Shown: positions 199-22,205 of the stretch, piece after piece
Layout: each line of letters starts with the position of its first letter
Position numbering within the stretch: the stretch's first letter is position 1
Assembly: GCA_017483465.1 (NCBI GenBank)
Contig: JAFUWN010000073.1
Span: 1-32,149, forward strand
DNA from: Oscillospiraceae bacterium
GTDB lineage: Bacteria; Bacillota; Clostridia; Oscillospirales; Ruminococcaceae
Reading direction: 5' to 3'
DNA length: 32,149 nucleotides
Notes under the pieces: model-generated
Databases searched by the model: none
Seen by the model: the letters and a program-made list of their open reading frames with translations, nothing else
Told to the model about the DNA's origin: nothing
Made by a program: the position numbers and the translations under genes

Positions 199-1911
199 AT
201 GAACAAACAGAAACAGCAGATATATAAACGTCCGAAACGGACGACTTTCTTAAAACTTTTCCTGAAAAGTGCATCCTGCGGATTGCTTCTGACCGGAATT
301 TTCGCAGGAATGCTGTATCAGATCAAGGAACAGGATATTTATAAGCAAGTCCGTGAGGAAGTGTATAGCTTCTCATCAAGAACAGTTTCCCGTCTGAGTG
401 ATGAGGAAATGACTAAGCATAGCCTGAATGCCTATCTCGGGGCATATACTTACTATAATGCCATTTTAGATGAAAATTATTTAGAAATGGATACTATGGC
501 TCAGTATGTTCCGAATTATAGTCAGAATTGTTATGCTCTCTCTGCAATCTTGGACGAAGATAAAAATATTTTATATTCCAATAAAGAAACGTTACAGACG
601 GTGATCAGAATTGATGATACTGAAAATTCCGGTGCATGGTATGCCTGCAATCTCGAAGCCTGTCCGGAGATATGGCAGAAATATCAGGATTATGTATGGA
701 ACAGTGACAGGTATCGTGATGATTTCAATGTAAAGCTCCACAGTGCCTATGTGAATACAAAAGAACATTTATTTGTTCCGCATGAATATGATCTGATCTA
801 TTCACATTTAGAGGGCGATCTGAATGGAACGCTCTATTCTGAACAGATTAATAAAACAGAAAAAAATTTAATGATTAATTATGATCATCCTGATTATGAA
901 CTGATTGTCTTTCCGGAAAGAGAGGAAAATACAACAGGAACGCTCTATCCCAGTGCATTCACGGCCTATTTCCGAGGCGTTTATGAACCCATTTTTGATG
1001 CGATTTACTCGCAAGCCAAAGGCTTCAACGATAATTTTGCAACATCCGGCATGTTCGGAGTCAGTCAGACCGCAAGAATTTATTATCATGTTGTTCCGAT
1101 CTGGAGAGACGGACAGAAAAATTATTTTGTTACGATTTTTCAGATTGATGTCTGGAATCCCCATATTAAAAAAATTTATCTCAGAACAATCGGCATTTTC
1201 CTGCTGAGTATGCTGATTATCGCCTATTTCTGGAGTATGCATAAGAACCGGCTGAATCAGGTGATTTATCAGTATGAAGATTATCAGAGAAATCTGATTA
1301 ATAATCTCGCTCATGATCTGAAAACGCCTCTGATGGCCGTCAGCGGTTATGCCGAAAATCTTCTGACTTCTTATAGAATGGAAGAAGAACCGAAACGCTA
1401 TCTGCAATCAATTTTAGAAAATATTAATTATACAGATTCTATGATCAATCAGACACTGGAATTTAATAAAATGCAGGAAATTCAGAAGCTCAGAAAATCC
1501 GTATGCAGTCTGCATGAACTGACAGAAAAGGCACTCCGGAAATATGAAATCTTACTCGAAGAACATCAGATTGCTGTCACGATCAGCGGTACGGCTGAAA
1601 TCATGGCGAATTATGAAACCATGACTTCTGCAATCGAGAATCTGATTTCCAATGCTGTGAAATATACCGCAGTCGGCGGAGAAATCAATATTGAAATTTC
1701 TGATAAAACATTCCGGATTGATAATACAGTTACGGGAAAAACAGAAACATCAGCCCTGCTTCTGCCGTTTGTGAAAGGCGATCAGGCAAGAGCAGGAAAA
1801 TCCGGCAGCGGTTTAGGATTATCTATTGCAGATCAGGCAATTCGGGCAAACGGTTTCCGGCTGGAAATCAGCTGTACAGAATCGGCTTTCACAGCTGTGA
1901 TTCATTTCTGA
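199..1911 (+). CDS. Membrane sensor histidine kinase
   Basis: The protein (570 aa) is a two-component sensor kinase of the inner-membrane HisKA/HATPase_c type. It has an N-terminal membrane segment at about residues 18-40, a roughly 285-residue extracytoplasmic sensor region I do not recognise, and a second membrane segment near 328-348. The catalytic core follows: an H-box with AHDLKTPL (phospho-acceptor His near 372), an N-box ENLISNAVKYT near 480, a weak G1 (IDNTVTG) and a G2 box GSGLGLSIA near 538. The ATG at 199 is preferred to the in-frame TTG at 196, but neither has a convincing ribosome binding site because an IS-end-like palindrome lies directly upstream. No response regulator is adjacent: the left neighbour promoter points away and the right neighbour is on the other strand. 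The cognate regulator is either elsewhere or was separated from it. Confidence 0.9.
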   Translation: MNKQKQQIYKRPKRTTFLKLFLKSASCGLLLTGIFAGMLYQIKEQDIYKQVREEVYSFSSRTVSRLSDEEMTKHSLNAYLGAYTYYNAILDENYLEMDTMAQYVPNYSQNCYALSAILDEDKNILYSNKETLQTVIRIDDTENSGAWYACNLEACPEIWQKYQDYVWNSDRYRDDFNVKLHSAYVNTKEHLFVPHEYDLIYSHLEGDLNGTLYSEQINKTEKNLMINYDHPDYELIVFPEREENTTGTLYPSAFTAYFRGVYEPIFDAIYSQAKGFNDNFATSGMFGVSQTARIYYHVVPIWRDGQKNYFVTIFQIDVWNPHIKKIYLRTIGIFLLSMLIIAYFWSMHKNRLNQVIYQYEDYQRNLINNLAHDLKTPLMAVSGYAENLLTSYRMEEEPKRYLQSILENINYTDSMINQTLEFNKMQEIQKLRKSVCSLHELTEKALRKYEILLEEHQIAVTISGTAEIMANYETMTSAIENLISNAVKYTAVGGEINIEISDKTFRIDNTVTGKTETSALLLPFVKGDQARAGKSGSGLGLSIADQAIRANGFRLEISCTESAFTAVIHF

Positions 1912-4898: not shown

Positions 4899-4926
4899 TC
4901 ACCGCAGAAATACGCTTTCTGCGGTG
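4899..4926. terminator. Bidirectional intrinsic terminator
   Basis: An 11-bp stem CACCGCAGAAA / TTTCTGCGGTG (4900-4910 with 4916-4926) has a 5-nt loop. On the minus strand it is followed by a run of seven T, an excellent terminator for the dockerin protein. On the plus strand it sits right after the reductase stop, with a weaker T-rich tail. Confidence 0.9.
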
Positions 4927-4942
4927 AACTGCTTTTCTATGA

Positions 4943-5863
4943 TTATGCTTGTGAAAAATCTGTAATCAGGCCGACAATATATTTCAGTATTGCCAGAGAT
5001 TCGTCAGAATCCGGCTTCTGATTCTGATTGAAATCGACATTGGCAAGCCCCTGTTCTGTGAGAGATTCTTTGCCTAAGATTGCTTTATTGATCGTAATCA
5101 CGTCCAGAATATTAACAGTGCCGTTCTGATCAGCATCGCCGGCCAGATTGTCAGCGGAGGATTCTTCTGCGGAAACTATGCAGACAGGCGGTACAAGTGT
5201 CAGTGTCTCTGATTTCGCACTGATGATGCTTGACTCTGCATTTTCCAGAGTTACAGTAACTTTGCCTTCGGCATCGGTTCTGTATTCTGTTTCTTTGCCG
5301 TTGATTGTAATCACTGCATTTTCGACAGGCAGAGTCACAGGAGTCCAGTTCTCGTCATAGGCCGCTCTGAAAAGCGTTAAATCCAGAGAATCACCCTGTT
5401 TGACTTCGGCTTTATCCTGATCAAAAAAGCTGTAAGAATCTGACCATGCTGTCAGATCAGTATAGACAAAGGCATACAGATAATCACCAGTCTGAACCGG
5501 GTCTGTCATGCTGAATGCTGAACTATGATTTACATAATAGCCATAGCTTCCGCCGTTCGCCGTACCCCATAATTTCGCAAGCGATAAGCCGTACTGAGTC
5601 TGCTCTGTGCCAAAACCGGCTTCTGCACCGCCGTCATAATAATCCTCATGTGCCTGATATAACGCATCATAGATTGTCAGTACACCGTCTCCGTCAAGAT
5701 CGGTTACCCTGACAGTATCCTGTGTCATTACAAGATTTCCGTCCTTATCTGCGATTGTGACGATAATATCCGCAGAATCTTCGGCAGATACCGGAAAGCC
5801 CGTCAGTGTGAAAGCCATGGTCAGAACAGCAGAAACTGCAATTGTTTTTTTTAATTTCATCAT
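4943..5863 (-). CDS. Secreted dockerin protein with transcobalamin-like (DUF4430-type) domain
   Basis: The protein (306 aa) has a signal peptide (residues 1-27, cut after VSA). A domain at about 30-160 reads like the DUF4430/transcobalamin C-terminal-like family: DLDGDGVLTIYDALYQAHE, then LWGTANGGSYGYYVNHSSAF and GDYLYAFVYTD. A beta-rich Ig-like segment spans about 165-225. The C-terminus, from 242, is a type I dockerin with two Ca-binding repeats: DADQNGTVNILD is canonical, DFNQNQKPDSDE is degenerate. Dockerins bind cohesins on scaffoldins. An upstream cobalamin riboswitch with a terminator controls the gene, which supports cobalamin (or cobinamide) binding at the cell surface. AAGGAG precedes the first of two adjacent ATG codons. 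The domain call is from memory of family sequence, so cobalamin binding is inference. Confidence 0.8.
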   Translation of the reverse strand: MMKLKKTIAVSAVLTMAFTLTGFPVSAEDSADIIVTIADKDGNLVMTQDTVRVTDLDGDGVLTIYDALYQAHEDYYDGGAEAGFGTEQTQYGLSLAKLWGTANGGSYGYYVNHSSAFSMTDPVQTGDYLYAFVYTDLTAWSDSYSFFDQDKAEVKQGDSLDLTLFRAAYDENWTPVTLPVENAVITINGKETEYRTDAEGKVTVTLENAESSIISAKSETLTLVPPVCIVSAEESSADNLAGDADQNGTVNILDVITINKAILGKESLTEQGLANVDFNQNQKPDSDESLAILKYIVGLITDFSQA

Positions 5864-5893
5864 GATGATACTCCTTCTTATGTTTATGATAAT

Positions 5894-5928
5894 AAAAATA
5901 AAAACTTTTCTGCATCCGGCAGAAAAGT
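5894..5928 (-). terminator. Riboswitch expression-platform terminator
   Basis: On the minus strand ACTTTTCTGC (5928-5919) pairs perfectly with GCAGAAAAGT (5913-5904) around a 5-nt loop and is followed by TTTTATTTTT. It lies between the cobalamin aptamer and the dockerin gene, so ligand binding probably decides between this hairpin and readthrough. Confidence 0.85.
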
Positions 5929-5930
5929 AC

Positions 5931-6097
5931 AGCTATCCTATCTGAATCAGGGCAGATTCCGCCCCTGACGGAACAGCAGCATTCTCCCGATGTCCGAAAA
6001 TGCAGAACTCTGTCAGTCTGTGTCTGCGAGCGACCCGACTGTTACGGTAGTGACGGCTGTGCCGGATTTGCACCGGACTTCCCTCAGTTCAGACGAC
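5931..6097 (-). promoter_or_regulatory. Cobalamin riboswitch
   Basis: Read on the minus strand, 6083-6041 carries the conserved cobalamin core GGGAAGTCCGGTGCAAATCC, then GGCACAGCC and the CACTACCGT stretch, close to the class consensus. Further on, about 6017-6000, ACTGACAGAGTTCTGC is a degenerate B12 box. A hairpin at 5947-5968 (TCAGGGG / GCCCTGA type) fits the 3' kissing-loop arm. A terminator follows at once, and the next gene is the secreted dockerin protein. Such riboswitches normally switch expression off when cobalamin is plentiful, so the protein should be made under B12 limitation. Confidence 0.93.
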
Positions 6098-6106
6098 TGT
6101 ATTAAA

Positions 6107-6135
6107 ATCATAGCATATTTTAAGCAATTTGTCAA
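6107..6135 (-). promoter_or_regulatory. Promoter of the cobalamin riboswitch transcript
   Basis: On the minus strand TTGACA (complement of 6130-6135), 17-nt spacer, TATGAT (complement of 6107-6112), with TGC before the -10. It places the transcription start just ahead of the aptamer. Confidence 0.85.
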
Positions 6136-6218: not shown

Positions 6219-6475
6219 AAACTGTAAAAGCTTTGACGGAAACAGTAATGCAGAATTGCGAACATTTCAGCGAGCCGCTGACGGTGCAAGAGCGGTATCA
6301 GTAGTATCTGCATGAAAATCATTCCCGAGCCGCAGTACTGAACCTGATTTTGATCAGAAAATAAGTACTGCCGCCGCTTCAGCGTTATCAGAAGCATAGA
6401 TGTCAGTCTATTGAGGTGGTTAGAAACAGATGTTCCGGGTCTGTCCTTATAACAGGACAGGCTTTTTATTTTTTT
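6219..6475 (+). promoter_or_regulatory. T-box leader of ileS, isoleucine specifier ATC
   Basis: Stem I is readable. GGAA near 6229 pairs with TTCC near 6321; AGTA opens the specifier loop; ATGCAGA pairs with TCTGCAT (6307-6313). The distal part CAGCGAGCC ... GGTGCAAGAGCGG matches the usual T-box apex. The loop GAAAATCA holds ATC (6318-6320), the Ile codon read by anticodon GAU. Stem III is ATAGA/TCTAT (about 6396-6411). The T-box GAGGTGGT at 6413-6420 offers TGGT to pair with ACCA of uncharged tRNA-Ile. A terminator hairpin CTGTCCT/AGGACAG (6441-6447 with 6454-6460) is followed by a long T-run. Uncharged tRNA-Ile should prevent termination and raise IleRS synthesis. Confidence 0.92.
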
Positions 6476-6496: not shown

Positions 6497-9400
6497 ATGA
6501 TGTACAAGAAAGTCAATCCCGATATGAATTTCGTTCAGAGGGAAAAATCTATTAAAGAATTCTGGATGGAACAGAATGTCTTCAAAAAAAGTATGGATTC
6601 CCGTCCGGCTGAAAATTCCTATGTTTTTTATGACGGCCCTCCGACTGCCAACGGCAAGCCGCATATCGGCCATGTGCTGACCCGTGCAATTAAAGATATG
6701 ATTCCCAGATACCGCACTATGAAAGGAGCTTTCGTTCCCAGAAAAGCCGGCTGGGATACACACGGACTTCCGGTAGAACTCGAAGTTGAAAAAATGCTCG
6801 GCCTTGACGGTAAAGAACAAATCGAATCTTACGGACTCGAACCGTTTATCAACAAGTGCAAGGAATCTGTCTGGAAATATAAGGGCATGTGGGAAGATTT
6901 CTCCGAAACCGTCGGCTTCTGGGCTGATATGGAAAATCCCTATGTAACTTATCATAATAACTTTATCGAATCTGAATGGTGGGCTTTGAAAGAAATCTAT
7001 AACAAAGGCCTGTTATACAAAGGCTTTAAGATTGTGCCTTACTGTCCGCACTGCGGAACACCGCTTTCTTCTCATGAGGTTGCTCAGGGATATAAGCTTG
7101 TGAAAGAACGTTCTGCAATTGTAAGATTCAAGATTAAAGAGAAAGAAAATGAATACTTCCTCGCATGGACAACAACGCCCTGGACTCTGCCTTCCAATGT
7201 CGCATTGTGTGTACATCCGGATGCTGTCTATGATAAAGTCAAGGCCGCTGACGGAAGAATCTATATCATGGCAGATGCCCTGTTAGATACTGTCCTCGGA
7301 GATCTGGGCACACCGGCTTATGAAGTTCTTGAAACTTATACCGGTAAAGATCTGGAACATATGGAATATGAACCGCTGTTCGCCTGTGCCGGAGAAGCCG
7401 CTCAGAAACAGAATAAAAAAGGCTTTTTTGTGACTTGTGATACTTATGTTACTATGTCCGATGGTACCGGTATTGTTCATATCGCTCCGGCATTCGGTGA
7501 AGATGACTCCCGTGTCGGAAAAAATTACGATCTGCCGTTTGTCCAGTTCGTTGACGGAAAAGGTTTATTAACACAGGAAACCCCTTATGCAGGCATTTTT
7601 GTCAAAGATGCTGACCCGAAAGTTCTGGCTGATCTCGATAAAGAAGGCAAACTCTTTGCCGCTCCGAAGTTCGAGCATGAATATCCGCATTGCTGGAGAT
7701 GTAATTCTCCGCTGATTTACTACGCAAGAGAAACCTGGTTTATCCAGATGACTGCCGTGCGTGATAATCTGATCAAAAATAATAATAAAGTTACCTGGTT
7801 CCCTGAAAACGTCGGAACAGGCCGTTTCGGTGACTGGCTCAAGAACGTACAGGACTGGGGTATCTCCAGAAACCGTTACTGGGGTACGCCTCTTAATATC
7901 TGGGAATGTGAATGCGGCTGCCGTCATTGTATCGGCTCGATCGAAGAATTGAAATCCATGTCTGATAACTGTCCGGATGATATCGAACTCCACAGACCCT
8001 ATATTGATGCCGTGACGATCAAATGCCCTGAATGCAGCAAGGAAATGCACCGTGTTCCGGAAGTGATTGACTGCTGGTTCGATTCCGGCTCTATGCCGTT
8101 TGCACAGCATCACTATCCGTTTGAGAATAAAGATCTCTTTGAAGCACAGTTCCCGGCTGATTTTATCTCCGAAGCTGTCGATCAGACAAGAGGCTGGTTC
8201 TATTCTTTGTTAGCGATTTCTACACTCTTATTCGACCGTGAACCGTTCAAGAATGTTATTGTACTCGGCCTGGTTCAGGATGAAAACGGTCAGAAAATGT
8301 CCAAATCAAAGGGCAATGCCGTTGACCCGTTCGAGGCTCTGGAGAAATTCGGTGCGGATGCGATCAGATGGTATTTCTATACCAATTCTCAGCCGTGGCT
8401 GCCGAATAAATTTCATGATAAAGTCGTGATCGAAGGGCAGAGAAAATTCATGGGTACGCTCTGGAATACCTATGCTTTCTATGTGCTCTATGCAGAAATC
8501 AATCAGTTCGATCCGACAAAGCATGAACTGGATTATGATAATCTCTCTGTTATGGATAAATGGCTTCTCTCCAGAATGAATACCATGATCAAAGAAGCTG
8601 ACGAAAATCTGAATGGCTATCATATTCCGGAAGCTGCTAAGGCAATGCAGACTTTCGTAGATGAGCTTTCTAACTGGTATGTCAGAAGAAGCCGTGAACG
8701 CTTCTGGAGTACCGAAGATACTCCCGACAGAACCAATGCTTATATGACATTATATCTGGCTCTGACTTCTCTGTGCAAGTGTGCCGCTCCGATGGTGCCG
8801 TTTATTACAGAAGAAATTTATCAGAATATCGTCCGCAGCGTAGATACCTCCGCTCCGGAGAGCATTCATCTGTGTGATTATCCGACTGCTGACGAGTCAA
8901 TGATCAATCCGGAGCTTGAATCCGAAATGGCTGAGGCAATGGATATTGTCGTACTCGGCAGAGCCGCAAGAAATGCCGCTAACAGAAAGAACCGTCAGCC
9001 TCTGAGTATCATGTATGTGAAATCTGAAAAAGTTCTGGATGATCAGTTCGTTGCAATCGTCAAGGAAGAACTGAACCTCAAGGCGGTTGCATTTACAAAT
9101 GATATGTCTGATTTCATGTCCTATCAGTTCAAGCCGCAGCTGAAAACATTAGGCCCTAAGTACGGCAAGAGCCTCGGAGAAATCAGAAATGCTCTGACTG
9201 CTCTCGACGGCAATGCCGCTATGGAGGAACTAAAGTCTGCAGGTGTTCTGAAACTTCAGATTTCTACAGGCGAAATCACCCTCATGGAAGAAGATCTTCT
9301 GATTGAAACACAGCAGAAAGAAAACTTCTATACAATTTCTGATAATCTGGTCACTGTTGCAATTGATATTACTCTGACTCCGGAACTCGAAGAAGAAGGC

Positions 9401-13046: not shown

Positions 13047-13328
13047 ATGAATCCAAAAACTCCGCATAAAAGACGGCTGGGTTATCTGAAAATGCCTCAG
13101 CCGGCGAATTCCAGAGAAGTGATTTATAAGATCGTAATTGATGAAATCCGGAATCAGGGCATTTTTGTCTATTTATACCTCAGCCCGGATGCAGTACGCA
13201 GTTCTTATGATGAGTATTATCCTGATCTGGATAACGCTCTTGAAAACTGGCAGGATGCTATTGACCAGCGAGGCTGGATTGCACTTCCTGAACCTCCTGC
13301 GGATGCACATGATCTGATATTTTTCTGA
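13047..13328 (+). CDS. Small conserved-looking protein of unknown function
   Basis: A 93-residue soluble protein with a basic N-terminus (KTPHKRRLGYL) and an acidic, aromatic C-terminal half (DEYYPDLDNALENWQDAI). I do not recognise it. It starts 3 nt after the hydrolase stop with AAAGGA upstream, so it is the last gene of the lipid cassette. It has no signal peptide or membrane segment. A terminator follows at once. Confidence 0.7.
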   Translation: MNPKTPHKRRLGYLKMPQPANSREVIYKIVIDEIRNQGIFVYLYLSPDAVRSSYDEYYPDLDNALENWQDAIDQRGWIALPEPPADAHDLIFF

Positions 13329-13338
13329 ATCATACAAA

Positions 13339-13366
13339 AGCCTCTTTCTAAAATCAGAAAGAGGCT
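13339..13366. terminator. Bidirectional intrinsic terminator
   Basis: An 11-bp stem AGCCTCTTTCT / AGAAAGAGGCT (13339-13349 with 13356-13366) lies between convergent genes. T-rich stretches follow on both strands (TTTTG on minus, TTATTTTTT on plus). Confidence 0.87.
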
Positions 13367-13373
13367 GTATTGC

Positions 13374-14138
13374 TTATTTTTTAAATTTCTCCGACATCCT
13401 GACCAGAGCAATGATTGTAATATTATCAGAACCCTTGTTCTGTAAAGCGAGTTCCATCAGAAGCTGTAATCTCCTGACCAGAGGTTTCGGCATAGCGAGA
13501 ATTTTTTCGATTTCCTGTCTGGTGACATAATCTGACAGACCGTCGGAGCATAATAATAAAATATCGTCGTATTCGATTTTTTCATGATGTTCCCGGATGT
13601 CAAAATCAGGCTGTTCCCGCAGATTCCCCAGTACAGGGAAGATAATATTACGGCTGACATGGGTCTGGCGTTCTTCTTCTGTGATAATGCCTTCTTCGTA
13701 GAGCACCTGCACATAAGACTGATCACGGGATAACTGTGACAGCTGCTTGTCACGATAGCGATATAAACGGGAATCACCGACATTCATACTGTGCAGCATA
13801 TCATGTTCGTCCACACCTAAAGCACAGAGGGTTGTCTGCATATTTCTTGTATCTTCCTGTTTGGCTCCGAGCCGGGCAAGAGCTTCATGAATGGAAGATA
13901 ATTTCCGTTCCATATCAATCCGGCTGGAGAAAGAAACATTTTTCAGCATATGCAGACATGCCGAAGAAGCAATTTCTCCGGAGAGTTCGCCGGAAACTCC
14001 GTCAGCGACTGCAATCAGAAACGGCTTGGAAAGCTCACATTCTGTCACGCCGTCCGTCAGGACGGTTTTATGAATCAGCAGAGCATCTTCATTATGCGGC
14101 CGAATGCCTTTGTTGGTAATCGCACAGCAGTAATACAT
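13374..14138 (-). CDS. PP2C-family serine/threonine protein phosphatase
   Basis: The protein (254 aa from the second ATG) is a cytosolic metal-dependent phosphatase of the Stp/PrpC type. Metal-binding motifs are present: NEDAL near residue 18, VADGVSGELSG near 45, LLCSDGLSDYV in the middle and GSDNITIIAL at the C-terminus. The second ATG (14138) fits the family start (MYYCCAITNKG); the upstream ATG at 14159 adds seven residues and lies only about 13 nt from the predicted transcription start. Neither has a strong ribosome binding site, so the start is uncertain. No PASTA-type kinase is adjacent, unlike the usual prkC-prpC pairing, so the substrate kinase lies elsewhere. Confidence 0.9.
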   Translation of the reverse strand: MYYCCAITNKGIRPHNEDALLIHKTVLTDGVTECELSKPFLIAVADGVSGELSGEIASSACLHMLKNVSFSSRIDMERKLSSIHEALARLGAKQEDTRNMQTTLCALGVDEHDMLHSMNVGDSRLYRYRDKQLSQLSRDQSYVQVLYEEGIITEEERQTHVSRNIIFPVLGNLREQPDFDIREHHEKIEYDDILLLCSDGLSDYVTRQEIEKILAMPKPLVRRLQLLMELALQNKGSDNITIIALVRMSEKFKK

Positions 14139-14178
14139 GATTTTTTCACACTCTCTCATGATCAGTATATCTGATTTT

Positions 14179-14207
14179 ATTATATAATATTTGTAAGAAA
14201 ATTACAA
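14179..14207 (-). promoter_or_regulatory. Promoter of the PP2C gene
   Basis: On the minus strand TTGTAA (complement of 14202-14207), 17-nt spacer, TATAAT (complement of 14179-14184). There is no extended -10 TG here. Confidence 0.6.
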
Positions 14208-14259
14208 TAACAGAATAAAATCAAATTTTTACAGGCAGATTACAAATTCCGGCAGGGGT

Positions 14260-15375
14260 TCAGATTTCATTGAAATTCCCTAAGAATTTGAAATATTCGA
14301 GATTTTCCGACAGCTCCTGTAAGAGTCCGCAGACAGCAGTATCATGAATATTTCCGCTGAAATCCAGATAGAACATGACATCAAAACTGCCGTTCCGGAT
14401 GGGTCTGCTTTCGAGTTTTAACAAATTCATATCACCGATCACGAATTTGCTTAATAAATGATACAGAGAACCTTCTTCATGCGGCAGTTTCAGCATGATG
14501 GAAATTCTGTCGGCATTGTCGGGCAGAAGCAGTTCTTTTGAGATACAGATAAATCTTGTATAATTCGGCACATAATCAGAGATATATTTTTGCAGAATTT
14601 CCAGTCCGTGCAGTTTGGCACAGTTTTCCGAGCAGATCGCTCCATAAGGCTGATCGGATTCCGCAACCATCTGGGCAGCAGTCGCAGTATTGCTGTACGG
14701 CATGGGGTGCATATCATGAACTGTGATGAATCTGGCACACTGTGTCAGTGCCTGCGGATGAGAATATACTTCTTTGACATCCCATAATTTTGTTCCTTTC
14801 CGGACGGCAAAACAGTTTGTAATTTCTACTGTCGTTGTCTTGCAGACATAGAAATTATATTTTGCCATGAGATCATAAGCCTGTACAACACTGCCGGCTG
14901 TGGAATTTTCTACCGGAATAATCCCGAACTGTACATCGCCGTTCTGAACGGCTTCAAAGACATCGGCAAATCCGGCGAGAAATTTCGGCTTGCAGTTCTT
15001 GCCGAAGATCTGTTTGGCAGCAGTTTCGGCATTGGCTCCGGCCGTACCCTGACAGGCGACACTTGCGGATTCTTCCAGATTCAGGCTCTTGTATTCGTAA
15101 GGATGTACATTCTTGTGCAGTTCCCTGTACTGGAGATATTTGCTGATATCCATAATATTCTGAAATAATACAGAAGCATAGCCCTCCAGCCCTTCCGGAG
15201 CATTGTCACGGATTCGCTGAATGACTTCTTTTTCCCGGTCTGTCTGAAAGATCTGCATTCCGTTTTCCTGCTTGTACAGAGCCACCTGACGGCAGAGTTC
15301 CATACGTTCGGAAAAATCTGACAGCATTCTTTTATCAATCTCATTGATATTTTTTCTGAGTTCTTCTAAATTCAT
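14260..15375 (-). CDS. pheA: Bifunctional chorismate mutase/prephenate dehydratase
   Basis: The protein (371 aa) performs two steps of phenylalanine synthesis: chorismate to prephenate, and prephenate to phenylpyruvate. Residues 1-88 form an AroQ-type chorismate mutase (LRKNINEIDKRML; REKEVIQRIRD). About 100-285 is the dehydratase, with PVENSTAG, YSHPQALTQC and the catalytic TRF in NYTRFI. The end is an ACT domain with KLESRP for Phe binding; the GALV motif reads GSLY, a variant also seen in other prephenate dehydratases. AGGAGG lies ahead of the ATG. It is divergent from ruvC and has its own promoter. Confidence 0.96.
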   Translation of the reverse strand: MNLEELRKNINEIDKRMLSDFSERMELCRQVALYKQENGMQIFQTDREKEVIQRIRDNAPEGLEGYASVLFQNIMDISKYLQYRELHKNVHPYEYKSLNLEESASVACQGTAGANAETAAKQIFGKNCKPKFLAGFADVFEAVQNGDVQFGIIPVENSTAGSVVQAYDLMAKYNFYVCKTTTVEITNCFAVRKGTKLWDVKEVYSHPQALTQCARFITVHDMHPMPYSNTATAAQMVAESDQPYGAICSENCAKLHGLEILQKYISDYVPNYTRFICISKELLLPDNADRISIMLKLPHEEGSLYHLLSKFVIGDMNLLKLESRPIRNGSFDVMFYLDFSGNIHDTAVCGLLQELSENLEYFKFLGNFNEI

Positions 15376-18769: not shown

Positions 18770-19669
18770 TTGAGAGCAGCAGAAAATTGGAAATCTTACC
18801 GGATTCTTGATACTTCCGACGGCGAAAAACTGGAAATCTGGAACGGTGTCACACTCATCCGGCCTGATCCGCAGGTCATCTGGAAAACCAGGAAAGAGCA
18901 GAAACTCTGGTCAAGAGCCGATGCCCATTATCACAGAAGTGCTTCCGGCGGCGGAAAATGGGAATTTCATGCCAATCTGCCGGAACAGTGGGAACTGCCT
19001 TACGGAGATTTGCAGTTCAGAATCCGGCCGACAGGCTTCAAACATACGGGATTATTTCCCGAACAGGCCGTGAACTGGGATTTTATGAGCCAGTTAATCC
19101 GGAATGCCGGTCATCCTGTGAGTGTCCTGAATCTGTTCGCCTATACCGGCGGGGCAACACTCGCCTGTGCCAATGCCGGAGCTGCTGTATGTCATGTGGA
19201 TGCCTCCAAAGGCATGGTACAGTGGGCAAGAGAAAATGCGAATTTATCCGGCTTGCAGGACAAGCCGATCAGATGGATTGTAGATGACTGCGAAAAGTTT
19301 ACGCTCCGGGAAATCCGCCGGGACAGGCATTATGATGCTGTCATCATGGATCCGCCCAGCTACGGCAGAGGCCCGAACGGAGAAGTCTGGAAGCTGGAAA
19401 ATTCTATCTATGATCTGGTTCAGAACTGTGTGAACGTCCTGAGCGAAAAGCCGCTGTTTTTCCTGATCAACAGCTATACAACAGGGCTTTCTCCGTCCGT
19501 GATGGGCTATATTCTGAACAGCTTCATGATCAGGAAATACGGCGGTCATGTGTATTTTGATGAAATCGGCCTTCCGGTCGAACAAAGCGGCATGTGTCTG
19601 CCCTGCGGTGCAACGGCAGTCTGGTGCAGTGAGGATGCAAAGGAGCTGTTCTATGGAAAAAATCATTAA
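18770..19669 (+). CDS. Class I SAM-dependent methyltransferase, rRNA-type
   Basis: The protein (299 aa) reads like the RlmI/RlmK-type fold that methylates RNA bases using S-adenosylmethionine. SAM motif I is [12 protein letters not shown] near residue 119, the acidic residue after strand 2 is in CHVDASKG, and motif IV is [10 protein letters not shown] near 193. There is no N-terminal PUA domain. A TTG at 18770 with AAAGGAG 9 nt upstream is preferred; the ATG at 18722 lies within ruvB and has no ribosome binding site. The end overlaps ecfA1 by 17 nt. The target nucleotide is not known. Confidence 0.85.
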
Positions 19670-20510
19670 GGCAGAACATATTGTCTTCCGCTATCCGGCC
19701 GATACGGAGGAAAATCAGAAACCTGCCGAAAATCCGCCGATTCTCAAAGATATTTCTCTTGAAATAGAAAAAGGCAGTTTCACGGCGATTCTGGGTCATA
19801 ACGGCAGCGGAAAATCAACATTTGCCAAGCATATCAATGCCATTCTTTTGCCGGAATCCGGTAAGATGTATGTGGAAAATCTGGATACTTCTGATGAAAA
19901 TCTGCTGTTTGAGATTCGGCAGAAAGCCGGTATGGTCTTTCAGAATCCGGATAACCAGATTGTTGCAACTGTAGTTGAGGAAGATGTTGCTTTTGCTCCG
20001 GAAAATCTGGGCGTTCCGCCTGCCGAAATCCGTCAGAGAGTGGATGATGCTCTCAAAGCTGTCAATATGTATGAATATAAAAATCATGCTCCGACACAGC
20101 TTTCCGGCGGTCAGAAGCAGAGAATCGCCATCGCCGGAGTCATCGCCATGCAGCCGGATTGTATTATTCTGGATGAACCGACTGCAATGCTCGATCCGCA
20201 GGGTCGTCAGGAAGTCATGCAGACAATTCAGAAATTAAATCAGGAAAAGGGTATCACGATTGTATTAATCACTCATTATATGGAAGAAGCCGCTCTCGCT
20301 GACAGAATTGTCGTCATTGATGACGGAAAGATCATTCTTGATGATACGCCCAAAAAAGTATTCTCTCAGGTCGAGCAGATGAAGGCTCTCGGCCTGGATG
20401 TGCCGCAGGTTACAGAACTTGCTTATGAACTCCGGAAAGTCGGCTATCCGGTTTCGCCGGAGATCATCACAGAAGAAGAATGTATGCAGGCTCTGGAAGC
20501 TTTATTATAA
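19653..20510 (+). CDS. ecfA1: ECF transporter ATPase subunit EcfA1
   Basis: The protein (285 aa) is one of two ATPases of the energy-coupling factor module that drives vitamin and metal uptake. Walker A is GHNGSGKST near residue 49, the Q-loop is [10 protein letters not shown], the signature is LSGGQKQR near 150, Walker B is CIILDEPTA near 170, and the H-loop is LITHYMEEA. The start at 19653 follows AAAGGAG inside the end of the methyltransferase gene; an in-frame extension to 19548 is rejected. It is followed by ecfA2 and ecfT. No S component is present in the operon, as is normal for group II ECF systems. Confidence 0.96.
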
Positions 20511-20538
20511 TTATTAATCATGAAAGGTAAGGAATGAA

Positions 20539-21405
20539 ATGGCAATTCTGAAAACCGAAGGTCTGACCTATACTTACAGTGCAGGCACTCCGTTTGAAAA
20601 AACAGCAGTTGACCATGTGGATTTATGTATCGAAGAAAATAAGATGATCGGCGTGATCGGACATACCGGCTCAGGCAAATCCACGCTGATGCAGCATTTC
20701 AACGGCTTGTTGAAACCCACTTCCGGAAAGATGCTTCTTGAGGGGGAAGACATCTGGGCAGATAAGGCAAAACTCAGGGACGTGCGTTTCAAAGTCGGAC
20801 TGGTGTTTCAATACCCGGAATATCAGCTGTTTGAAGAAACCGTTGCAAAAGATATTGCATTCGGCCCGAAGAATATGGGCCTGAGTGAAGCCGAAATCCA
20901 GACCAGAATCCTGGAAACTGCCGATATGCTCGGCATGGACAGGGAATTGCTGGAGCGTTCGCCGTTTGCTCTGTCCGGCGGTCAGAAACGCCGGGCTGCT
21001 ATCGCCGGAGTCATGGCCATGCGGCCGAAAGTGCTCATTCTTGATGAGCCTTGTGCCGGACTGGATCCCAAAGGCAGAAATCTGATGCTCAGTCAGATCA
21101 GGAACTATCAGAAAAAAACACAAAGTACGGTTCTGCTTGTCTCGCACAGTATGGAGGATGTGGCAGAATTTACAGAAAAACTGCTCGTCATGAGCAAGGC
21201 AAAATTATTCTGCTATGAAGATACTTATCAGGTGTTCCGCAGAGCAGAAGAATTGAAACAGCTCGGCCTGAGAGTGCCTCAAATTGCCTCTGTCATGCAG
21301 TCACTCCGGAAAAAAGGCTATGACCTGCCGGAAGATTTATATACAGTCGAAGCGGCAAAGAATGCCGTGCTTGCACTGTTGGGAAAGGGGGCAGTGCAAT
21401 GCTGA
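20539..21405 (+). CDS. ecfA2: ECF transporter ATPase subunit EcfA2
   Basis: The protein (288 aa) pairs with EcfA1 as the second ATPase. Walker A is GHTGSGKST near residue 41, the Q-loop VFQYPEYQLFEETV is of the EcfA2 type, the signature is LSGGQKRRAAI near 145, Walker B is VLILDEPCAGLD near 164, and the H-loop is LLVSHSMEDV. AAGGTAAGGA lies upstream of the ATG. Its stop codon overlaps the ecfT start by 7 nt. Confidence 0.96.
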   Translation: MAILKTEGLTYTYSAGTPFEKTAVDHVDLCIEENKMIGVIGHTGSGKSTLMQHFNGLLKPTSGKMLLEGEDIWADKAKLRDVRFKVGLVFQYPEYQLFEETVAKDIAFGPKNMGLSEAEIQTRILETADMLGMDRELLERSPFALSGGQKRRAAIAGVMAMRPKVLILDEPCAGLDPKGRNLMLSQIRNYQKKTQSTVLLVSHSMEDVAEFTEKLLVMSKAKLFCYEDTYQVFRRAEELKQLGLRVPQIASVMQSLRKKGYDLPEDLYTVEAAKNAVLALLGKGAVQC

Positions 21406-22205
21406 AAGATATTACACTCGGACAGTATTTTCCCATTGACAGTGTTCTTCACAGATGTGACCCCAGATTTAAAATTATCTATACGCTGATTTTTATTGTC
21501 ATGCTGTTTTCCGGGACTCATTACTGGACACTGCTCATCGGTGCTGTATTTGTGATCATGGCACAGTTGCTCTCCAGAGTACCGCTCAAAATGAGCTGGA
21601 AGAGCATGAAGCCTCTGCTGCCGGTATTAGTATTCACAGCCGTGCTGAATCTGGTATTTATCGACAGCGGAGAGGTGCTGTGGGAATGGAGATTTCTGAA
21701 AATCACACAAGGCGGTGTGAATACCAGTATTTTTATGATATGCAGGATTATATTATTAATCGTCGGGTCATCGCTTCTGACTTACACGACTTCTCCGATT
21801 CTGCTTACCGATGCGATTGAATCTCTGATGTCGCCGCTCAAGAAAATTAATTTTCCGGTGCATGAAATGGCGATGATGATGTCGATTGCTCTGAGATTTA
21901 TTCCGACTCTGCTTGAAGAAACAGATAAAATTATGTCTGCTCAGAAAGCCAGAGGAGCAACTCTTGACAGCGGTAAGATGATGGAGCGGGTCAAAGCTAT
22001 GATTCCGATTCTGATTCCGCTGTTTGTCTCTGCGTTCCGGAGAGCTGAAGAACTGGCCACAGCGATGGAGTGCCGCTGTTACCGGGGCGGAGAGGGAAGA
22101 ACCCGTCTCCGTCAGCTGAAAGCCGCCGGAAGAGATTATATCGGACTTGTGATCTGTCTGCTGTTCTTGGCACTGACAGTCACACTGAATATTATTTTAT
22201 CATAA
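21399..22205 (+). CDS. ecfT: ECF transporter transmembrane subunit EcfT
   Basis: The protein (268 aa) is the membrane scaffold linking the two ATPases to interchangeable substrate-binding S components. It has several hydrophobic segments: about residues 25-60, 70-85, 100-125 and a last one near 245-265. Two coupling-helix motifs are visible, QKARGATL and ECRCYRGG; the second lacks the usual Ala. A strong GGGGG site precedes the ATG, and translation overlaps ecfA2. The transported vitamins depend on S components outside the window. Confidence 0.94.
   Translation: MLKDITLGQYFPIDSVLHRCDPRFKIIYTLIFIVMLFSGTHYWTLLIGAVFVIMAQLLSRVPLKMSWKSMKPLLPVLVFTAVLNLVFIDSGEVLWEWRFLKITQGGVNTSIFMICRIILLIVGSSLLTYTTSPILLTDAIESLMSPLKKINFPVHEMAMMMSIALRFIPTLLEETDKIMSAQKARGATLDSGKMMERVKAMIPILIPLFVSAFRRAEELATAMECRCYRGGEGRTRLRQLKAAGRDYIGLVICLLFLALTVTLNIILS

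Follow-up and report, generated by a model that had tools for sequence, protein, structure and literature searches.

BtuG and BtuH of Bacteroidetes are membrane-associated proteins that serve outer-membrane uptake, and dockerin research centres on polysaccharide breakdown. Closer to the locus described here is the transcobalamin-like clade of SLBB proteins, for whose surface members with Gram-positive anchors the accessible text of Burroughs et al. 2007 (PMC1796856) proposes vitamin B12 scavenging. The same text describes SLBB operons in which a toroid-SLBB gene stands with CbiO/CbiQ-like ABC genes, at times together with a second extracellular SLBB protein. Here we analysed a stretch of 32,149 nucleotides from an Oscillospiraceae bacterium, a gut relative of Ruminococcus (assembly GCA_017483465.1, contig JAFUWN010000073.1), called the window below, in which a cobalamin riboswitch precedes the gene of a secreted 306-residue protein ending in a type I dockerin (4943..5863). 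Window coordinates are positions in this stretch, read as the minus strand unless marked (+); the labels G, L and C stand for genome, locus and contig.

The protein probably forms part of a corrinoid uptake system, as a surface subunit under riboswitch control that the cellulosome displays, and its family is probably the second extracellular protein of the transcobalamin-like SLBB operon type. Like the SLBB clade, as the accessible text presents it (PMC1796856), it is a Gram-positive surface or secreted protein whose relatives share an operon with a toroid-SLBB-type partner and a transporter. Unlike the clade, it falls below DUF4430 detection, carries an EF-hand-like loop, a riboswitch and a dockerin, and is solitary in its own genome; the word "dockerin" is absent from the main text of that article. 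An earlier note on this DNA had proposed a cobalamin-capture protein on a scaffold. Its B12 link and its cohesin-dockerin system held up, but the protein is probably not a lone invention: it would be one of two surface proteins of the operon type that the accessible text already describes (PMC1796856), and capture itself is something we infer.

BtuG and BtuH are alike in concept, as accessory B12-handling proteins of gut bacteria (accessible text of PMC8941943). The non-enzymatic cellulosome partners of Ruminococcus flavefaciens are likewise secreted dockerin proteins without catalytic domains, according to the accessible text of PMC2930009 and PMC5301203; "vitamin" and "cobalamin" are absent from the main text of the former, and "vitamin" from that of the latter. 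The xyl-doc cluster of Clostridium papyrosolvens, with its putative riboswitch in the 5' untranslated region, likewise has RNA-leader control of dockerin genes, but in the accessible text that riboswitch is speculated to sense oligosaccharides (PMC5815224), whereas the window leader is of the cobalamin family. In the open literature we found nothing joining dockerin with transcobalamin, nor transcobalamin-like proteins with a riboswitch in Firmicutes, and among papers that mention dockerin with cobalamin or with a riboswitch, titles and abstract openings showed no arrangement of this kind. Within the literature searched, three things are new: the use of a dockerin as anchor, the swap between it and a sortase-type tail, and a riboswitch gene that stands as an orphan.

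The riboswitch leader

Transcription of the gene may start from a sigma-70-type promoter-like site, TTGACA-17-TATGAT with TG ahead of the second hexamer (6107..6135), which is a consensus match only (11/12 positions). The AdoCbl-II (cobalamin) riboswitch aptamer at 6021..6095 passes the gathering cut-off of RF01689 in Rfam by a thin margin (37.2 bits against 36.5, E 1.8e-05 for the window). An 8-bp hairpin (GCATTTTC/GAGAATGC, 5979..6003), located by script 3' of the aptamer, is a candidate kissing-loop (P13-like) stem. The expression platform between aptamer and gene holds an intrinsic terminator-like hairpin with a T-run (5904..5928, from a hairpin search), and another terminator-like hairpin lies 3' of the gene (4899..4927). 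The promoter, aptamer and terminator read here in the earlier note were all recovered, and its proposed B12 control of the gene is supported, the riboswitch also preceding relatives' copies. When the leader was folded without ligand, the minimum-energy fold disrupted the terminator and was merely 0.8 kcal/mol ahead of the terminated fold, and we therefore claim no clear switch; going by its RNA family, the leader would turn the gene off in a ligand-dependent manner.

Despite the thin Rfam margin, the riboswitch at the window gene is more than chance, because like elements precede relatives' genes. Cobalamin-clan Rfam models matched at E<=0.05 in 10 of the first 22 relatives' loci. With R1, a model built on 12 leaders of the gene family, elements with E under 1e-10 were found in 12 of the 22 genomes searched, each upstream of a family-gene copy; the gene is present in 21 of these genomes, and 11 of the 12 elements were training members, that of G019 not. 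The window leader itself matched R1 at 89.1 bits (6102-6014), having belonged to the training set. In a search of the genus, R1 matched in the 5' flank on the same strand at 14/16 loci, ten of them outside the training set and one of them weak (L196, 25.2 bits); no R1 element precedes the G307 gene. A thirteenth genome with an element, G106, has RF00174 at the operon head. Terminator-like hairpins occurred in 12/13 family leaders, against 4.6 expected from shuffles. Rfam and R1 gave no element at the gene or operon in G028, G188, G250, G065, G037, G279, G096 and G292, where some contigs are short. In G196 the element precedes a copy at a contig end (L060) and the transporter adjoins another copy (L067).

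Weaker R1 matches lie elsewhere in G037 (30.2 bits), G000 (contig C87, 22.2) and G106 (contig C2, 22.5), and one of 19.5 bits in L068, inside an open reading frame (ORF) at 13289-15211, was taken as chance. The consensus fold of the 12 aptamers has 14 pairs, three with changes on both sides, and a weak covariation term; P1 stems sought by script were not used, their registration being unreliable. A small ORF separates element and gene in G108, G120 and G246. Such ORFs in the leaders of L022, L023 and L030 are mutually similar by eye, and the spacing in L060 is alike.

The gene family and its transporter operon

Searched at the protein level, with up to 7 candidates scored per genome, the taxonomic family (297 genomes) yielded matches in at least 44 genomes and the two-domain region in at least 21, the window's own genome included; the remaining matching genomes had only dockerins or weak matches. 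Named genomes added two loci: L043, and L042 from uncultured Ruminococcus sp. RUG14155, which is 73% identical. L042 and the genus locus L182 are not independent, because both look like one species. G295 carries two further diverged family copies of about 25-30% identity (L065 7761-8426, L066 8056-7604).

Neighbours were surveyed in the 21 genomes by tblastn with own-genome queries (E<=1e-4). The family gene, a toroid-DUF4430 gene and the S component of an energy-coupling factor (ECF) transporter adjoin on the same strand in 16 of them (G019, G250, G065, G037, G279, G096, G108, G120, G249, G113, G263, G106, G246, G192, G295 and G196), with the S component upstream of the family gene in G250, G037 and G106; L043 also has the family gene beside toroid-DUF4430 and S component. 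The partner protein is an alpha/alpha-toroid plus DUF4430, the latter over cut-off and the toroid a weak Pfam match below cut-offs. Gene and partner are on different contigs or far apart in G000, G028, G139 and G188, and linkage in G292 was not callable, its contigs being short. In L059 the order is family protein (with an LPXTG-type tail), toroid-DUF4430, T component, double EcfA and S component; this T component was missed by Pfam and was weak with NCBIfam ECF_T_CbiQ (17.5 bits against a cut-off of 111.8). By eye, L046 and L043 have the same order. A xylose isomerase-like TIM-barrel gene (PF01261) is inserted within the L043 operon at 8262-9074 (+).

An operon of the SLBB type for B12 uptake is thus present around the family gene in 16/21 genomes, with EcfT and EcfAA in L059, L046 and L043, and absent from the window's own locus. 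In the window's genome contig C42 carries the toroid-DUF4430 and S-component pair, with no T or A genes next to it. The window holds an EcfA-EcfA-EcfT energising module (a pair of ECF ATPase genes and one for an EcfT-like protein) at 19548-22205 (+), about 14 kb from the riboswitch gene. DUF4430 presence alone is weak evidence: such a protein was found in 148/297 genomes, namely 21/21 with the family gene and 127/276 others. Contig C60 of the window genome (L002) has one RF00174 element (90.9 bits), preceded by genes of the CobB/CobQ-like and CbiC kinds and followed by one for CbiK; the genome therefore also has B12 biosynthesis genes.

We judge it highly improbable that this is just a cellulosomal adhesin or Ig-like protein of the usual kind whose gene a chance rearrangement placed behind a B12 riboswitch, the B12 link being accidental. 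The window gene is solitary and away from the transporter, and its dockerin class also occurs on leucine-rich repeat (LRR) proteins and cellulases of the window genome, as such an accident would have it. However, riboswitch and transporter linkage occur in other genera with sortase-type tails, so that the connection with B12 extends beyond the proteins with a dockerin.

Domains and fold of the protein

The 306-residue ORF begins with a signal peptide of about residues 1-27 (5783..5863), and the secretion claimed in the earlier note stands on this ORF and on a by-eye reading of the peptide. Domain 1 (residues 28-148, 5420..5782) resembles transcobalamin-beta/SLBB-like beta-grasp domains in fold only, domain 2 (about residues 145-235, 5159..5431) is an Ig/prealbumin-like beta sandwich, and the C-terminal type I dockerin takes up residues 241-295 (4976..5143). 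PF00404, at 29 bits against a cut-off of 22.9, is the sole Pfam family over cut-off in the protein and agrees with the dockerin assignment made earlier.

Domain 1 had been called a DUF4430, transcobalamin-like domain, and by sequence its DUF4430 identity is ruled out. PF14478 (DUF4430) was absent from the window protein at E<=1 in Pfam, had no match listed at the family gene (E<=0.001) when the 21 genomes with that gene were searched, and was not among the best 25 of 42 Pfam families for 23 relatives at E<=1. Between the family domain and true DUF4430 domains, hhalign gave a probability of 0.8%, and hidden Markov model (HMM) scores fell within shuffles. A PDB sequence search gave no meaningful match for domain 1, nor for true DUF4430 domains. 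The transcobalamin-like part of the claim is left with a limited fold resemblance and with the relatives' operon of toroid-DUF4430 and ECF transporter.

The full two-domain model (pLDDT 62) had structure matches dominated by the Ig-like domain, and domain 1 was therefore modelled alone. The best structural neighbours of this low-confidence model were the beta domains of transcobalamin, haptocorrin and intrinsic factor (PDB 4kki, 5np4, 2pmv), at 8-10% identity. Foldseek gave no match at E<=0.03; transcobalamin 8ixt (E 0.22) had the highest TMq (0.43) among the best 50 matches. A transcobalamin-beta/SLBB-like beta-grasp is a low-confidence lead for domain 1, and the domain may bind corrinoid. 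The vertebrate beta domains would be its nearest structures, yet the window protein has no toroid in the chain.

In domain 1, T9, G15, D28, D32, G33, T36, A40, H45, G56, G65, W72, G73, G81, S114, D115 and F120 are invariant in 23/23 rows (numbering of alignment A1, not of the window protein). The family alignment places within the domain an EF-hand-like loop, DLDGDGVLTIYD (residues 55-66, 5666..5701), of the form D28-x-D30-x-D32-G33-x-L-T36-x-x-D39, with D30 and D39 kept in at least 90% of the 23 rows; judged by its residues, the loop may bind calcium. The invariant G33 (23/23) sits after model strand 2. Two conserved glycines mark the transcobalamin-like SLBB clade, one directly following the second strand and the other preceding the third, and G33 is a candidate for the first.

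An alternative, which we consider unlikely, is that the protein is part of B12 uptake yet binds no corrinoid itself: as a platform at the surface it would hold the toroid-DUF4430 partner in position or stabilise it, and its loop, Ig-like domain and anchor would all be structural. The relatives' operon indeed has a complete two-domain transcobalamin-like partner, domain 1 is without DUF4430 sequence features, and the EF-hand-like loop is conserved in 23 rows. However, the best structural neighbours of domain 1 are B12-contacting beta domains, and the separation of gene and partner in the four unlinked genomes makes a 1:1 complex less obviously required.

Anchor exchange

A sortase-type tail is the usual anchor of the family protein, with the dockerin marking an exchange of anchors at the level of lineages. 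Read by eye, the 23 family-level rows comprised 17 sortase-type tails (an xPxTGD-like motif, a hydrophobic stretch and a basic end, some degenerate), three dockerins, two transmembrane tails only and one row with no anchor; NCBIfam at E<=0.1 found NPXTG models in 9/23 and LPXTG in 8/23. The gene was found in 16/38 genus genomes, by eye with five dockerins, ten sortase-type tails and one transmembrane tail. PF00404 was over cut-off for L191, L184, L182 and the window protein, and L190 (G139), which stops at its contig end and has its partner on another contig, was called by eye. A toroid-DUF4430 gene lies close downstream in 7/16 genus loci, none of which carries a dockerin; all five dockerin genes fall among the 9/16 without toroid-DUF4430 in the sequence covered, usually about 1.3 kb, a comparison that ignores kinship.

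In the first tree the three dockerin rows could form a single clade (support 58/3). Across the genus, the wider tree requires four anchor changes, counted without direction, at least two of them forced by well-supported branches, and the dockerin label was not clustered beyond shuffles (140/500 as low). L183, with a sortase tail, and L184, with a dockerin, are sisters (support 99/96). Over 2109 bases, which begin in the upstream flank, take in the riboswitch and domain 1 and stop close to where domain 2 ends, their DNA is 86.8% identical; it diverges through the tail and the next gene, and then matches again at 89% over 262 bases downstream. The difference between them is an anchor exchange in place. 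The swapped stretch (L183 2107-3341, L184 2104-3115 on the reverse strand) comprises the tail of the gene and a next gene that is not the same in the two species; past this stretch lies a conserved gene.

The cellulosome of the window genome

The cohesin scaffold expected in the earlier note has a real counterpart: the window genome encodes a cohesin-dockerin system with nine cohesin matches, one of which (C10) has stops in frame, and 105 dockerin matches. Six of the nine cohesins form a cluster on C41 that we read as similar to the R. flavefaciens sca cluster; C116 and C11 also carry cohesins. The class of the window dockerin is shared by 54 of 97 extracted dockerins; parents of the class (53 scanned, many incomplete) included LRR proteins (13), GH9 (7), GH5 (3), cohesins (2), GH48 (1) and a serpin (1). 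Its class is shared with cellulosomal enzymes and the genome encodes cohesins, as expected of a cellulosome component; the dockerin would dock on a cohesin. Against the PDB it matched other dockerins, at best with E 1.7e-06, none decisive for type. The accessible text of PMC5301203 reports that, in R. flavefaciens, dockerins of group 4 have the sortase-anchored ScaE as their cohesin partner. A PxSEES-like second-loop subset was rejected as a clean non-catalytic class, its parents, though richer in LRR proteins (9/21), also including GH9, GH44, GH26, GH43 and GH5. A cohesin protein with its own terminal dockerin lies at L071 2780-4192 and a similar one on C41 (L068 12318-13166); these are possible adaptor scaffoldins.

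The broad dockerin class is the same as that of GH9, GH48, GH5 and GH10 enzymes, and the dockerin might accordingly serve no B12 uptake but bring the protein into cellulosomes for some other purpose, for instance contact between cell and fibre when B12 is short. We give this little credence: the swap with a sortase-type tail took place at one and the same locus and left the riboswitch and the two domains intact, which points to a common role in surface display.

Proposed mechanism and its meaning

As a surface subunit of corrinoid uptake, the protein would work as follows. At low intracellular cobalamin the leader would let transcription through the terminator and the protein would be secreted. 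Domain 1 would capture corrinoid at the surface, or help in its hand-over, while the dockerin, in place of the relatives' sortase-type tail, would dock on a cohesin of the cell's scaffoldins. The next recipients of the corrinoid may be two products of C42 genes, the membrane-anchored toroid-DUF4430 protein and the S component of the ECF transporter, with import possibly energised by an ECF module such as that at 19548-22205. For another ECF transporter, ECF-CbrT, complementation of an E. coli mutant in B12 uptake is reported in PMC5997447.

On a broader proposal we are evenly divided: that cellulosomes serve in general to display nutrient-capturing proteins at the surface, and that relatives of Ruminococcus have repeatedly swapped the sortase tail of a B12-responsive vitamin-capture protein for a dockerin by in-place replacement of the 3' end of its gene, building into the fibre-degrading complex a corrinoid scavenging that is on at vitamin shortage. 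If true, vitamin acquisition would be a further task of the cellulosome, and L183/L184 would be a domain swap made by nature, one that suggests that either anchor, dockerin or sortase tail, can stand in for the other in surface display. In the accessible text of PMC2930009, 118 dockerin proteins of R. flavefaciens FD-1 are listed with domains of unknown function; one protein of this type gains a testable role from riboswitch, relatives' operon, fold and anchor exchange. The family also offers a compact bacterial protein for asking by what means capture of the transcobalamin type could proceed when the chain itself lacks a toroid.

On the other side of the leader, Rfam gave no T-box above cut-off in the window, where the counterpart region lies at about 6224-6450 (+), before an ileS-like gene. 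In the near relative L042 a T-box leader match of 76.2 bits, below the cut-off of 93, stands divergently upstream at 488-704 (minus strand).
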